Positions 54,740 to 62,676 of a stretch of 64,000 bases of DNA are shown here, in pieces. The stretch is taken from positions 1 to 64,000 of the IMG/VR virus record IMGVR_UViG_3300035195_000412; one strand, given 5' to 3'. The DNA is from a virus. Within the stretch, counting starts at the first letter, position 1. Every line of letters begins with the position of its first letter. Made by a program: the position numbers and the translations under genes. The notes under the pieces were generated by a model. It was not told where the DNA came from, did not search any database, and saw only the letters and a program-made list of their open reading frames with translations.

Positions 54740-54747
54740 TATTTATG
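54740..54747 (-). promoter_or_regulatory. Late promoter-like CATAAATA for gp48 (minus strand)
   Basis: One mismatch from TATAAATA on the minus strand, 42 nt before the gp48 ATG. It overlaps the gp4 start codon, so the divergent promoters are interleaved. Confidence 0.55.
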
Positions 54748-55194
54748 GCATATTCGGGTAAGTTCAAACCAAAGAACTACAAAAAATACAAAGGAGACCC
54801 CACTAAAATCTATTATAGGTCTTTATGGGAGCGTAGATTCATGGTTTACTGTGATGAAAACAGCAATGTATTAGAATGGGGTAGTGAAGAAATCATTATA
54901 CCATACATTTCACCCTTAGACAAAAGACCACATAGATATTTTCCCGACTTTTACATAAAGTATAAGAATGCATCGGGTCAAATACTTCGAGAAATCATTG
55001 AGGTCAAACCTAAGAAACAAACTAGGCCCCCAAAACAACCAAAACGTAAGACACAACGTTACTACAAAGAGGTTGCAACCTATGTAGTCAATGAAGCAAA
55101 GTTTAAAGCTGCAGAAAGCTTCTGCAAAGATAGAAAATTTGGATTCCGTATACTAACCGAAGACCACTTACTCCCAAAAAAGGTAAAAAAATGA
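54745..55194 (+). CDS. gp4: Head completion nuclease-like protein, gp4
   Basis: A 149-residue protein (T4 gp4: 150) needed to finish the head and allow tail joining. It has the TnsA-like restriction-endonuclease fold: YYRSLWERRFMVYCDENSNV (27-46), then the catalytic-type HRYFPDFYIKY and EIIEVKPKKQ, giving the E...D...ExK set. A late box and a 29-nt leader without a clear ribosome site precede the ATG. It overlaps the HAD gene by 4 nt. Confidence 0.92.
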   Translation: MAYSGKFKPKNYKKYKGDPTKIYYRSLWERRFMVYCDENSNVLEWGSEEIIIPYISPLDKRPHRYFPDFYIKYKNASGQILREIIEVKPKKQTRPPKQPKRKTQRYYKEVATYVVNEAKFKAAESFCKDRKFGFRILTEDHLLPKKVKK

Positions 55195-55793
55195 AGAAAT
55201 TATATGTATTTGATTTGGATGGAGTCTTGATTGACTCAAAAGCAAACATGGAACTGGCATTCAACAAGTTAGACACTGGTAAACCTTTTGAAGATACCAC
55301 TAATACGTTCCCAAGTTATTTTAAACACATTGGTAAACCGTTCAAGGATATCTTAACTGAGATGGGTATACTTACTGACCAAGATGAGTTGATGAGAAGA
55401 TACAATAGATACTCTGCAGCGAATTCTAACTTGATAAAGTTTTACGATGGTGTAGAAAAACACCTTCAATCATTGGAGCGTGATGGTAAGAAATTAGCCG
55501 TGGTAACTTCGAAGTCGAAATTACGAGCTGATGCTATTCTTGCTGAGATTAATGTCAATTTTGAAATCATATGTTGTCCCACTGAAGGATTGAGAGGGAA
55601 ACCATCCCCCGACCAACTACTATATACCCTTGCATATTGTAATACTGACCCAAGTGATGCAGTTTATGTTGGGGATATGCAAGTAGATATGGATTGTGCA
55701 AACAGAGCTGGGGTAGATTTCATCTATGCAGAATATGGATATGGAGATATAGAATGTTGTTGGAACAGAGCAAATTCAATCGAGTCGGTTTAA
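55191..55793 (+). CDS. HAD-family phosphatase beside CMP-KDO synthetase
   Basis: A 200-residue hydrolase with all HAD motifs: FDLDGVLIDS (8-17; catalytic Asp pair), AVVTSKSK (motif II), the lysine region EGLRGKPSPDQ (motif III) and YVGDMQVDMDCANRAG (motif IV). The cap domain between motifs I and II is alpha-helical, as in phosphoglycolate phosphatase relatives. Overlap with the kdsB-like gene by 40 nt suggests they work together. KDO-8-phosphate phosphatase is therefore possible, although classical KdsC proteins lack a cap of this kind, so the substrate remains open. Confidence 0.82.
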   Translation: MKKLYVFDLDGVLIDSKANMELAFNKLDTGKPFEDTTNTFPSYFKHIGKPFKDILTEMGILTDQDELMRRYNRYSAANSNLIKFYDGVEKHLQSLERDGKKLAVVTSKSKLRADAILAEINVNFEIICCPTEGLRGKPSPDQLLYTLAYCNTDPSDAVYVGDMQVDMDCANRAGVDFIYAEYGYGDIECCWNRANSIESV

Positions 55794-56494
55794 TACCTGC
55801 TCGTTGGGGTTCATCTAGATTTGAGGGTAAACCCCTTGCATTAATCTGTGGTGAATCTATGATTAAAAGAACCTATGACCGTGCATCGGCTTCGAAGAAA
55901 CTAGACAAGGTCTACGTGGTTACGGATGATAACAGAATTGAATACCATTGTGAGATATTCAATATACCTGTGATAAGAGTTGATGATGATTGTGAAACTG
56001 GTACCGATAGATGTGCAATTGCATCTGAACAAATAGATGCAGATATCTATGTTAATATTCAAGGTGACGAACCCTTGATTGACCCCGAAGCAATTGATAG
56101 ACTATGTGATTATTTTAATCCTAATCTTGGTGTTGCAAATGCATATGTTACAATCGAGGAACCTTACAAGGTCATGGACAACGATGTAGTAAAGGTTGTG
56201 TTTGATTCACATCATTGTGCAATGTATTACTCACGTCTTGGTATACCTTTCCCACGAGGTGAGGATGCAAGGGTACATCAACAACTTGGTTTATATGCAT
56301 TCACTAAAGAACGTCTACAAGAATTTTCTGCATTACCTATGCAGACTTTAGAGAGAGCTGAAAGGGTTGAGATGTTGAGATTCTTAGAACATGGATATAA
56401 GGTTCTAATGATTCATGTAGAAGATGATGGTCTATCAGTAGACACACCTAAAGATATCAAACTAGTAGAGGATAGAATAAATGCATATAACTGA
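55754..56494 (+). CDS. kdsB: 3-deoxy-manno-octulosonate cytidylyltransferase (CMP-KDO synthetase)
   Basis: A 246-residue protein, close to bacterial KdsB in length. It activates KDO with CTP to CMP-KDO for lipopolysaccharide. LIPARWGSSRFEGKPLALIC (about 13-32) is the CTP-binding loop, followed by IKRTYDRA, VVTDDNRI, ETGTDRCAIA and NIQGDEPLI, which are all family hallmarks, and IPFPRGED near 165. Start: ATG 55754; an upstream in-frame start at 55694 would add 20 unrelated residues. It overlaps the end of the HAD gene. CMP-KDO could modify host LPS, or supply KDO for a phage glycan. Confidence 0.93.
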   Translation: MLLEQSKFNRVGLIPARWGSSRFEGKPLALICGESMIKRTYDRASASKKLDKVYVVTDDNRIEYHCEIFNIPVIRVDDDCETGTDRCAIASEQIDADIYVNIQGDEPLIDPEAIDRLCDYFNPNLGVANAYVTIEEPYKVMDNDVVKVVFDSHHCAMYYSRLGIPFPRGEDARVHQQLGLYAFTKERLQEFSALPMQTLERAERVEMLRFLEHGYKVLMIHVEDDGLSVDTPKDIKLVEDRINAYN

Positions 56495-57214: not shown

Positions 57215-57802
57215 ATGGTATCAAGAGTCTTATTGTCAGCAGTAGCAAAAATGTTACCCGAAGATATAGAATCGGGAACTGAAGATAGTCTTGAATGGTT
57301 TAGAACTAACGTAAGAGATATTAAACTAAGACCCGATAGATTAATGGGTGGACTGAGTGCAGTTACATCTAGTAGTTTTAAGCAGGGTAAAGTATACATG
57401 TTTCACTACGATGCTAAATGGCAAGATGAATTGCCTTACTGGGATAAGTACCCAATAGTGATACCAATAGAACAATATAAAGATGGGTTCTTAGGTATTA
57501 ATACACATTACATTGCACCTAGACATAGAACTGCATTACTCAGACCCTTATTAGAAGAGCTAAGAGGCAATACAATAGAGGGTGATGGAGATACTAGAAT
57601 GGAAGTTGATTACAACATCATTCAGTACAATAATGATTTAAGGTTTGCAAAACCTTGTATCAAAAGATATTTAACAACACACATAGGTGCAAGAATAGTG
57701 GAAGTACCTTACCAACAATGGGAAGCAATATTGATGTTACCACTTGCAAAATTTAACGTCAACGCAAATACTGTGTATGCAGAGAGTCAAAGGAAATTCT
57801 AA
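57215..57802 (+). CDS. Probable DNA end protector, gp2-like
   Basis: A 195-residue protein. VYMFHYDAKWQDELPYWDKY (about 52-71), then PIVIPIEQYKDGFLGINTHY with LRPLLEEL, is a block I associate with gp2-type end protectors of T4-like phages (T4 gp2 binds the DNA ends in the head). The rest is not distinctive. Position next to gp4 and a tail-tube-fold gene agrees with T4 order 3-2-4, but the identification is tentative. A leaderless start is likely (promoter 5 nt upstream). Confidence 0.55.
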   Translation: MVSRVLLSAVAKMLPEDIESGTEDSLEWFRTNVRDIKLRPDRLMGGLSAVTSSSFKQGKVYMFHYDAKWQDELPYWDKYPIVIPIEQYKDGFLGINTHYIAPRHRTALLRPLLEELRGNTIEGDGDTRMEVDYNIIQYNNDLRFAKPCIKRYLTTHIGARIVEVPYQQWEAILMLPLAKFNVNANTVYAESQRKF

Positions 57803-58611
57803 TGAGTATAACAATAGATACGTTTAAAGCAAATTTTGATGTAGGTGCAAGAGGAGACCATTATGATGTTGCTATTATAGCACCTGCTGGATTAGGATTT
57901 CAGTTCGCTGCAGAAGACATGCTTAGATGTAGAAGTGTAGATATGGAAGGTTCATCTTTAGGAACTAATACAAGAGACCAATACAATTCGGGATATGAAA
58001 TCCCCGACGGAACTGTAGACCAAGGTGGGTTTGTTGACTTAACCTTTATATGTGACCAATCATTTCATGACCGTGCATTAATTGAAGCATGGCATCGATG
58101 GATTTACGAAGCACCATACACAGGTGGTGCTGGTGGAACTCAAGGTTCTGCACAAATACCAGTCATGAAATATCTTGATGAATACATCGGACAACTTGAA
58201 GTGTATGCACTGAGAAAGGACGAAACTAAGTCTTTAAAATATTGTTACTATGACGTATATCCATCATCATTCGATACTCAAAGTTTTGGTGCAGACTCAA
58301 GTGGTATACTAGAAATTAGTATGTCATTCCAATACAGACATTACGATACAGAATACATGGTAGAAGATAGGAAGCCAAATAGAAATTACACTGAGATATA
58401 TGATGGTATGCTAGCAAAGCAACCAAAACTTCCCGAAGCTTCTGCACTAAATACTGGAAGAAAGATTTTAGATTCTACTTTAGACGCATTAAAAGTCGGA
58501 AGTAGATTTAACGATAAAGTTGGTGGTTACCTTAATAAGTTATCATCACTTGACACCGCTGCCACTAAGTACAAAAACCTAGGAATAGGAAAGTTACTGG
58601 GTGGTGGTTAA
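57802..58611 (+). CDS. Tail-tube-fold protein, gp54- or gp3-like
   Basis: A 269-residue protein. HYDVAIIAPAGLGFQFAAED (20-39), FHDRALIEAWHRWIYEAPYT and YYDVYPSSFDTQSFGADSSG have the strand-helix-strand order of the tube superfamily (gp19, gp3, gp48, gp54). The C-terminal 80 residues are helical. It could be the baseplate tube initiator gp54 or the tail completion protein gp3; I cannot separate them. The start overlaps the previous stop (TAATG). Confidence 0.65.
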   Translation: MSITIDTFKANFDVGARGDHYDVAIIAPAGLGFQFAAEDMLRCRSVDMEGSSLGTNTRDQYNSGYEIPDGTVDQGGFVDLTFICDQSFHDRALIEAWHRWIYEAPYTGGAGGTQGSAQIPVMKYLDEYIGQLEVYALRKDETKSLKYCYYDVYPSSFDTQSFGADSSGILEISMSFQYRHYDTEYMVEDRKPNRNYTEIYDGMLAKQPKLPEASALNTGRKILDSTLDALKVGSRFNDKVGGYLNKLSSLDTAATKYKNLGIGKLLGGG

Positions 58612-58630: not shown

Positions 58631-59335
58631 ATGGCCTTACCAATTCAAGCAACCCCCACATATACATGTGAATTGCCATCAACTGGTACTGAAGTAAAAT
58701 TCAGACCGTTCCTAGTAAAGGAACAAAAGATTCTTGTCATTGCACAAGAAAGTGAAGACCCGAAAACTACACTTAGTGCAGTTAAGGATTTGATTAATAA
58801 TGTGACGTTTGAGAAAGTCAATGCAAATGAATTGACTATGTTTGACCTAGAGTACTTGTTCTGTAAAATCAGAGCAGTATCAGTAGGTGAAACGATTCCA
58901 TTAAAGTTGGCTTGCATGTCAACTGACTGTAATGGAACTGGTGAAACAGTAGTTAACTTAGATGACCTAACAGTAACAGAAGATACTGGTGGTGACCCTA
59001 AGATAATGATATCAGATGACGTTGGTATTATATTAAGATATCCAAAGGTTAAAGATATGGAACAAATTACTACTGCTTCTGAAGACCAACAATCGATAGA
59101 AGTTCTTAAGGCATCAATCACACAAATTTTTGATGCAGAGAATGTCTACGATGAGGCTGATATGTCAGCTGACGATAAATCAGAGTTTGTAGAAAGTTTA
59201 ACCTTTCCACAGATTGAGAAGTTGAGTGCATTCTTTAACGGTATGCCCAAACTTCAAGGTAAGATTGAATACAAGTGTAACACTTGTGGTAAGTTGAATG
59301 AGAGAGTATTAGAAGGACTACAAAGTTTTTTTTAA
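58631..59335 (+). CDS. gp26: Baseplate hub / tail assembly chaperone-type protein, gp26-like
   Basis: A 234-residue protein (T4 gp26: 208). EVKFRPFLVKEQKILVIAQE (21-40) is the family start, ELTMFDLEYLFCKIRAVSVG follows, and Cys pairs CMSTDC and KCNTCGK suggest a zinc site. It ends QSFF then TAA inside a run of eight T. The sequence T TTT TTT before the stop is a canonical -1 slippery heptamer leading into the next frame. GGAG lies 7 nt before the ATG. Confidence 0.88.
   Translation: MALPIQATPTYTCELPSTGTEVKFRPFLVKEQKILVIAQESEDPKTTLSAVKDLINNVTFEKVNANELTMFDLEYLFCKIRAVSVGETIPLKLACMSTDCNGTGETVVNLDDLTVTEDTGGDPKIMISDDVGIILRYPKVKDMEQITTASEDQQSIEVLKASITQIFDAENVYDEADMSADDKSEFVESLTFPQIEKLSAFFNGMPKLQGKIEYKCNTCGKLNERVLEGLQSFF
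59326..59332 (+). promoter_or_regulatory. Predicted -1 ribosomal frameshift site, T TTT TTT
   Basis: In the gp26 frame the codons are AGT TTT TTT TAA. The heptamer T TTT TTT lies directly before the stop and fits the X XXY YYZ rule. A -1 slip leads into the open frame ending at 59529. The slip is predicted, not shown. Confidence 0.6.
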
Positions 59336-59529
59336 TAACCCTTTCTCATGAGTCGGTGTTTAATTTTTATAGCACCAACTTTCAACTAATGCAACACCAC
59401 AAATACTCGTTAGACGAATTAGATTCAATGATACCTTGGGAAAGGGAAATCTATATTAAATTGCTCATGCAACATCTAGAAGAAGAAAAAGAACGTCAGA
59501 AGGCAGAACAAGCCAAAATGAGAAGATAA
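59332..59529 (+). CDS. gp51-position C-terminal extension reached by -1 frameshift
   Basis: An open frame of 65 residues in -1 relation to gp26. It reads LITLSHESVFNFYSTNFQLM and continues MQHHKYSLDELDSMIPWERE, then a Glu/Lys-rich helix ending KMRR. No start codon has a ribosome site: candidate ATG 59389 would give 46 residues and cut off conserved-looking FNFYSTNFQL. Translation as a gp26 fusion (299 residues) is therefore most likely, as with lambda G-GT before the tape measure. The place is that of T4 gene 51. Confidence 0.65.
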   Translation, partial: LITLSHESVFNFYSTNFQLMQHHKYSLDELDSMIPWEREIYIKLLMQHLEEEKERQKAEQAKMRR

Positions 59530-59557: not shown

Positions 59558-59938
59558 ATGAGCGACATGGAAAAATTTCAAGGCGACATGAGTCGTAACG
59601 AAGTAGAAATTGACTTGAAAAAGTTTATGAGTATGGTTTCTGAAATCGGTGATTTGAAACAGGAAATCTTTGAACTAACTCAAGAAGATAGAAAGAACCC
59701 TTGGCAGAAATGGATATTTGCAGCTAAGACAATTGATGCATGGAGAATTATACCTCGTGCATTCCTAGGTATTTACATGTACCTATTATATTATGCGACT
59801 TTTTGGTTTATGGACTTAACAGACCCAACACTAGAACAATCGGGATTGATTTCCGTATTGGTTGGTGCTGGTGCAGCTTGGTTTGGTCTATACACTTCAA
59901 GTGCAGCGAAAGAACACGCAGATACAAACCCTAATTAG
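59558..59938 (+). CDS. Small membrane protein before the tape measure
   Basis: A 126-residue protein. The first 60 residues are soluble and acidic-helical (NEVEIDLKKFMSMVSEIGDL). Two membrane segments follow: PRAFLGIYMYLLYYATFWFM (about 67-86) and SGLISVLVGAGAAWFGLY (about 98-115). The tail is short and polar. Two spans with a charged N-terminal arm could be a holin or an inner-membrane partner for the tail tip. No diagnostic motif. AGAGGA precedes the ATG. Confidence 0.7.
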   Translation: MSDMEKFQGDMSRNEVEIDLKKFMSMVSEIGDLKQEIFELTQEDRKNPWQKWIFAAKTIDAWRIIPRAFLGIYMYLLYYATFWFMDLTDPTLEQSGLISVLVGAGAAWFGLYTSSAAKEHADTNPN

Positions 59939-62430: not shown

Positions 62431-62676
62431 TCAACCTAACGGCCCTCTGAATCCACGTCTACCCATTGATGCTCTTTTTGCATCTAACTTCTTACGTCTC
62501 TTTAAGTCTTGATTTCTTTGGTTCTTAATTGTATTAGGTTTGATGTGATACTTTCTATCACGACATTCTTGAACTATACCTGCTTTCTCACAATCCTTTT
62601 TAAATCTGCGAAGTAGTTGGTCGAACCCTTCTACGTTCCGATTCTTTGGATTTATTTTTGGTGTTACACTAGGCAT
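62431..62676 (-). CDS. rpsU: Ribosomal protein bS21 (phage-encoded)
   Basis: An 81-residue protein. NVEGFDQLLRRFKKDCEKAG (13-32), IVQECRDRKYHIKPNTIK and a basic end KRRKKLDAKRASMGRRGFRG follow bacterial S21, which binds the small subunit near the mRNA entry and helps initiation. It is longer than the bacterial protein at the C-terminus. Phage bS21 is known from marine phages including SAR11 phages; it may enter host ribosomes and favour phage mRNAs. AGAGAAAA lies before the ATG, and a 198-nt structured leader precedes it. Confidence 0.9.
   Translation of the reverse strand: MPSVTPKINPKNRNVEGFDQLLRRFKKDCEKAGIVQECRDRKYHIKPNTIKNQRNQDLKRRKKLDAKRASMGRRGFRGPLG

Follow-up and report, generated by a model that had tools for sequence, protein, structure and literature searches.

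The window, by which we mean the whole 64,000-nt stretch of DNA analysed here, derives from an uncultivated marine phage and carries a series of tail genes whose order (tail tube-like gene, putative chaperone locus, one small ORF, tape measure gene) agrees with a frameshifted tail chaperone of the lambda G/GT type (Table 1). No tRNA genes were found within these 64,000 nt. The gp26 product scores 195.8 bits against PF12322, for which the curated cut-off is 24.5, and its best PHROG, number 150, bears the label 'baseplate hub'. Its ORF ends with the codons CAA AGT TTT TTT TAA TAA, and in the -1 frame 65 open codons (59332-59526; translation past the predicted slip, LITLSHESVFNFY..., also given as LITLSHESVFNFYSTNFQLMQHHKYSLDELDSMIPWERE...) lead to a TAA at 59527-59529. 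A fusion of gp26 with this frame is predicted to be 299 aa long. The PHROGs matched by the 65-aa frame are 634, 'baseplate hub assembly catalyst' (E=4e-27), and, at its C-terminal end, 150 (positions 236-280 of 282, E=5e-7); the latter suggests that both parts reside in one chain in some phages.

Table 1. Features of the putative chaperone locus and its neighbours, in window coordinates
Feature	Position	Strand	Match or remark
Tail-tube-like protein, upstream neighbour	57802..58611	+	phrog_45, E=7e-16
gp26, candidate tail assembly chaperone (short form), 234 aa	58631..59335	+	PF12322 T4_baseplate, E=1e-57; phrog_150, E=4e-63
Shine-Dalgarno-like GAAGGA (AGGA at 59314-59317)	59312..59317	+	8 nt before the slippery run
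Putative slippery heptamer T TTT TTT	59326..59332	+	inside the T8 run 59326-59333
Frame-0 stop TAA directly 3' of the heptamer, then a second in-frame TAA	59333..59338	+	
-1 frame, putative C-terminal domain of the long form, 65 codons + TAA	59332..59529	+	phrog_634; end of phrog_150
Predicted RNA hairpin, 10 bp, one internal mismatch, 10-nt loop	59350..59381	+	17 nt after the heptamer
Small ORF (126 aa) separating chaperone locus and tape measure gene	59558..59938	+	phrog_10198, E=3e-19, no assigned function
Probable tail tape measure protein, 755 aa	59949..62216	+	several tape measure PHROGs, weak, best E=6e-8

The first-pass annotation had described the end of the gp26 frame, AGT TTT TTT TAA, and the 65-codon open frame at -1, and both descriptions are exact to the base. 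Its statement that no start codon in the -1 frame has a ribosome site likewise holds: the possible starts near the front are limited to GTG 59356 and ATG 59389, and neither is preceded by a clear ribosome site. It had further placed this frame before the tape measure gene. The order is right, but the two are not directly adjacent, as the 126-aa ORF intervenes, just as in HTVC008M, where the gene annotated as tape measure occupies the same position as the one assigned here. The intervening ORF encodes hydrophobic stretches, and an ORF of similar size lies at the same place in HTVC008M and Melnitz.

On its own, the heptamer stands out only slightly within the window and constitutes weak evidence. 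In-frame heptamers of the A/T type, ten in all, occur within the last 15 codons of 8 of the 118 stop-to-stop ORFs, and two of these eight (gp26 and 54745-55194) run on for at least 50 codons in the -1 frame. The second candidate, in which an A-rich run is coupled to a long -1 frame, proved to be an ordinary 4-nt ATGA overlap with a downstream gene that has its own start at 55191. This downstream ORF (55191-55793, +) resembles a HAD hydrolase by eye (MKKLYVFDLDGVLIDSK). It is followed by a cytidylyltransferase gene (55775-56491, +; PF02348, E=4e-43), possibly an auxiliary metabolic gene; enzymes like it activate sugars destined for surface polysaccharides. Given how little the heptamer says by itself, the decision rests on comparison with relatives.

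For this comparison, viral contigs and phage records supplied 222 loci, all ORFs of which were searched with profiles of the gp26 part and of the domain encoded in the -1 frame (hereafter C-domain). In 203 of the 222 loci, a lone gp26 domain is accompanied by the C-domain in the -1 frame. At 11 loci, which are T4-type, there are at least two gp26 domains and the C-domain is in frame with one of them; the C-domain profile was unmatched in eight partial or distant loci. Both arrangements together were seen in none of the 222. The heptamer T TTT TT[T/C/A] sits at the junction in 182 of the 203 -1 loci, all outside the Ackermannviridae, and is kept in every non-Ackermannviridae -1 locus that is readable across the junction (182/182). 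The remaining -1 loci are 20 from Ackermannviridae and one fragment, L099, that is not judgeable; because its best matches lie in non-overlapping ORFs, it is counted among the 203 but left out of the 182. The Ackermannviridae loci (L094, L095 and L195-L212) show GA[AG] or CAG, then ATT TTC AT[TC] TAA, with no canonical heptamer. Since their frames overlap by only about 10-22 nt, an unusual slip would be pinned to A TTT TC. Among named phages, TTTTTT[C/T] near the end of gp26 together with an open -1 frame was present in P-SSM2, S-CAM4, Mosig, HTVC008M, Melnitz, pf16, Moby, ACP17 and Aeromonas CC2, and in two of the three Vibrio phages examined.

Two proposals of the first-pass annotation are borne out here: the phase of T TTT TTT in the window is that of the canonical -1 rule X XXY YYZ, and the heptamer and frame relation, which it had suggested comparing in T4-like genomes, recur in 182 loci. 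It had also named a sequencing error in the T8 run as a possible refutation. Such an error is ruled out, because T8 is kept in 71 distinct sequences from separate assemblies and the same frame relation accompanies TTTTTTC or TTTTTTA in most of the other loci.

Statistics were calculated on 67 clusters below 90% nucleotide identity. A stop follows the heptamer directly in 16 of the 17 TTTTTTT clusters and mostly one to two codons later in the TTTTTTC/A clusters. In all 67, the pair of Phe codons begins with TTT (background 75%, nominal probability 3e-9) and the codon preceding the pair ends in T (nominal probability 1.5e-8), although these values are too optimistic because the clusters share ancestry and are not independent. 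E. coli ribosomes slip at both U_UUU_UUU and U_UUU_UUC (PMC4066793).

The -1 frame itself is under purifying selection from its first codon onward. Its codons 1-16 have a dN/dS of 0.15, compared with 1.4 and 2.2 for the other two frames, and its first 45 codons are free of stops in all 67 clusters, where the other frames average about five. The same applies to loci with no start there, the ratio being 0.13 in the 30 clusters that lack ATG, GTG and TTG in codons 1-18 of the frame.

While the heptamer and frame of the first-pass annotation stand, two flanking elements that had gone unnoticed refine the signal. The consensus of relatives at -15 to -10 before the heptamer is GGAGGG, of which GAAGGA in the window is a weaker form. 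Where this Shine-Dalgarno (SD)-like site includes a Glu codon, it is GAG in 47 of 55 clusters, as against a background of 24% over the rest of these genes (P=2e-21); synonymous shuffles pair far less strongly with the anti-SD sequence than the site itself is predicted to do (z -11, 67 clusters). Its spacing, 9-10 nt upstream, fits published -1 stimulators, for which SD-like elements 9-14 nt upstream (PMC5009743) and distances of 6-17 nt with motifs including AGGA (PMC4066793) have been reported.

On the downstream side, the stretch from +12 to +60 forms more stable structure than its synonymous shuffles do (z -3.25 +- 0.21), a signal that fades further along; the hairpin predicted in the window has -9.5 kcal/mol and z -2.5. 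RNAalifold yielded no single consensus structure across all 67 clusters, as the position of the stem differs between clades, and covariation was therefore tested in one clade. In this clade, that of the window, 13 cells changed on both sides of the hairpin versus 4.2 in shuffles, none of 500 of which reached as high a value. These two-sided substitutions (G-C to C-G or U-A and G-C to A-U) fall on wobble positions of the -1 frame. The hairpin signal is weaker (z -1.28) when the T8 clade is taken as a whole. The 17-nt spacing in the window is beyond the usual; in P-SSM2-like loci about 5 nt separate the heptamer from the stem. By these comparisons, the SD-like stretch and the hairpin are both kept at synonymous sites, and both probably raise the rate of slipping.

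The two products can be compared with those of T4 itself. T4 gp26 (208 aa) consists of the PF12322 domain only, and T4 gp51 (249 aa) has a PF12322 domain (1-201) followed by the C-domain. In profile comparisons, gp26 aligns with residues 5-200 of T4-type gp51 (E=5e-11) and the -1 frame with residues 203-244 (E=7e-7). T4 gp26 and gp51 are therefore paralogues, the short and the long form encoded as two genes. These genes are divergently transcribed, and a slippery site is absent from the end of T4 gp26; in the window, by contrast, one gene is continued by the C-domain in the -1 frame. No second PF12322 gene with the C-domain in frame was found in the 70.3-kb contig, a partial genome with one PF12322 match. 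T4 and its close relatives have two genes in place of the frameshift predicted here, and the broad spread of the frameshift favours a duplication later than frameshifting. The proposal that gp26 and gp51 are the T4-type counterparts of lambda G and GT is thus supported, with the correction that the -1 frame corresponds to no more than the final ~45 residues of T4 gp51, whose remaining part is paralogous to gp26; T4 gp26 is the short form and T4 gp51 the long form. T4 gp26 also shows a weak match to the family of gp28 (PHROG 1140, E=9e-4; T4 gp28 is L084:9349-9882), so that gp28, encoded just before the T4 tape measure gene, may be a distant relative.

Most public records that we saw annotate the -1 frame as a separate gene or leave it out, and an ATG at its codon 4, near the gp26 stop, occurs in 28 of the 67 clusters and likewise in P-SSM2. 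This would suit a separate small gene ('gp51') that uses its own start or coupled re-initiation at the gp26 stop. Relatives do not consistently share this start, however, 20 of the 67 clusters having no ATG, GTG or TTG before codon 17, and a separately started gene would not protect the stretch of codons 1-18 ahead of it; codons 1-17 are under purifying selection even in the 30 start-less clusters. Moreover, the conserved SD-like site lies about 25 nt from the codon-4 ATG, too far to serve it yet suited to a -1 stimulator, and a separate gene leaves the invariant T6 run, the forced synonymous choices and the in-frame fusion in T4-type gp51 unexplained. We regard this explanation as extremely unlikely. 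It is just as hard to believe that RNA polymerase rather than the ribosome slips on T8, joining the frames through an extra U in some mRNAs. Eight Ts are near the length at which polymerase slippage begins, which may be why E. coli genes avoid UUUUUUU (PMC4066793). Most relatives, however, have the same frame relation with just T6 followed by C or A, and it is the ribosome that responds to X XXY YYZ phasing, an SD-like element and a hairpin.

A frameshift might also be real and its products be structural parts of the baseplate hub, as the Pfam and PHROGs labels of the family (baseplate or hub protein) imply and as some T4 genetics, which place gp26 in the hub, would have it (PMC3004832). The same review gives T4 gp26 and gp51 as hub assembly chaperones, with gp51 absent from the virion, and short and long forms encoded near a tape measure gene are a mark of tail chaperones. 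The predicted structure of gp26 (pLDDT 86) is supportive, though no more than that: among solved structures it comes closest to gp13, the tail assembly chaperone of HK97 (2ob9; Z 7.2, 83 residues, rmsd 3.9; next match 3.6), a similarity that is limited to gp26 residues 1-85, with a Z under 8, within the chance range, and a Foldseek E of 3.0. A sequence search of gp26 against solved structures gave no match, and the model of T4-type gp51 is without a clear solved match, the HK97 chaperone not being listed for it. A chaperone identification by Vladimirov et al. in 2022, as far as its title and citing papers tell, points the same way. Purely structural hub parts therefore strike us as rather unlikely.

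Taken together, we are highly confident that a tail assembly chaperone is encoded at this locus of a marine T4-type phage and that its expression involves programmed -1 ribosomal frameshifting. The junction of gp26 with the downstream frame by a -1 shift, as the first-pass annotation had predicted, is very probable in light of the 203 of 222 loci, the 182 heptamers and the selection on the -1 frame, and two chaperone lengths very probably arise from the one gene by a -1 slip on the eight Ts. From the anatomy of the site, its conservation, the selection from the first codon of the -1 frame and the homologies, all read in the sequence, we infer the slippage, its rate, the effects of the stimulators and the chaperone function. 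Most ribosomes would stop at the TAA at 59333 and release the short chaperone, gp26. A smaller share, while two Phe-tRNAs occupy UUU UUU, would slip back by one base on U8 and add 65 residues to give the 299-aa long form, an event whose rate the upstream SD-like pairing and the downstream hairpin probably increase. By analogy with lambda gpG/gpGT, many short and few long chaperones may coat the tape measure protein, and the added domain may recruit tail tube subunits. T4 would obtain the same two forms from its paralogous genes 26 and 51.

The likeness to lambda gpG/gpGT lies in one gene giving two products by a -1 frameshift near its 3' end, before the tape measure gene (PMC5009743); the window differs in its slippery site, T TTT TTT, and in the extra 126-aa ORF. 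A 2016 review still treated T4 as an exception to the conserved G-T frameshift (PMC5009743). Chaperones of T4-like phages have since been identified by Vladimirov, Gautam and Davidson (Virology 2022, 566:9-15), known to us via PMC10885494 and PMC12846349. Of the papers citing this study, that on PRFect mentions some T4-like phages with a short gene and a separate fused long gene (PMC10885494), and that on Adele mentions poly-T -1 signals in T4-like chaperone genes (PMC12846349). As cited there, those chaperones share with our locus a gp26-type short form and a long form with an added C-terminal domain, the difference being that the window stems from an uncultivated marine phage. With T4-like tail chaperones named in 2022, the frameshifted chaperone described here is therefore, as far as these citations go, not a new kind. 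In Vandenendeviridae and Andersonviridae (PMC12846349), a conserved poly-T -1 site also ends the short chaperone gene; these are other phage families, and the printed GTTTTT is not a full T TTT TTN heptamer. No earlier description of a conserved SD-like element plus hairpin at this locus was found in a literature coverage that is incomplete.

The combination of upstream SD-like pairing, slippery heptamer and downstream hairpin recalls the E. coli dnaX cassette, which has an A-rich heptamer in another gene, so that the resemblance is mechanistic only. The ribosomal protein bS21 helps mRNA to pair with 16S rRNA, and a link between such a protein and the SD-like stimulator is conceivable. A bS21 gene is present in the window at 62434-62676 on the minus strand (PF01165, E=3e-12), and one has also been reported for the Pelagibacter phage HTVC008M (PMC6375957). 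It seems very unlikely, nonetheless, that we are looking at a dnaX-like three-part cassette, undescribed for T4-like phages, whose SD arm is tuned by the phage bS21 encoded 3 kb away.

As to annotation, the C-terminal frame is a separate gene with varying starts, or missing, in public records of cyanophages and pelagiphages, and no joined frameshift CDS was seen among those opened. Hundreds of database records contain the locus, and as the examined ones split off 'gp51' or miss it, the two frames ought to be annotated as joined. For measuring how phages control the short-to-long ratio, the conserved SD-like site and hairpin would offer a ready cassette. Finally, a very common group of marine phages, the relatives of cyanophages and pelagiphages, would rely for its tail chaperones on the classic frameshift, which T4 lacks, and T4 gp26 and gp51 would be explained as descendants of one ancestral gene, standing for its short and its long form.
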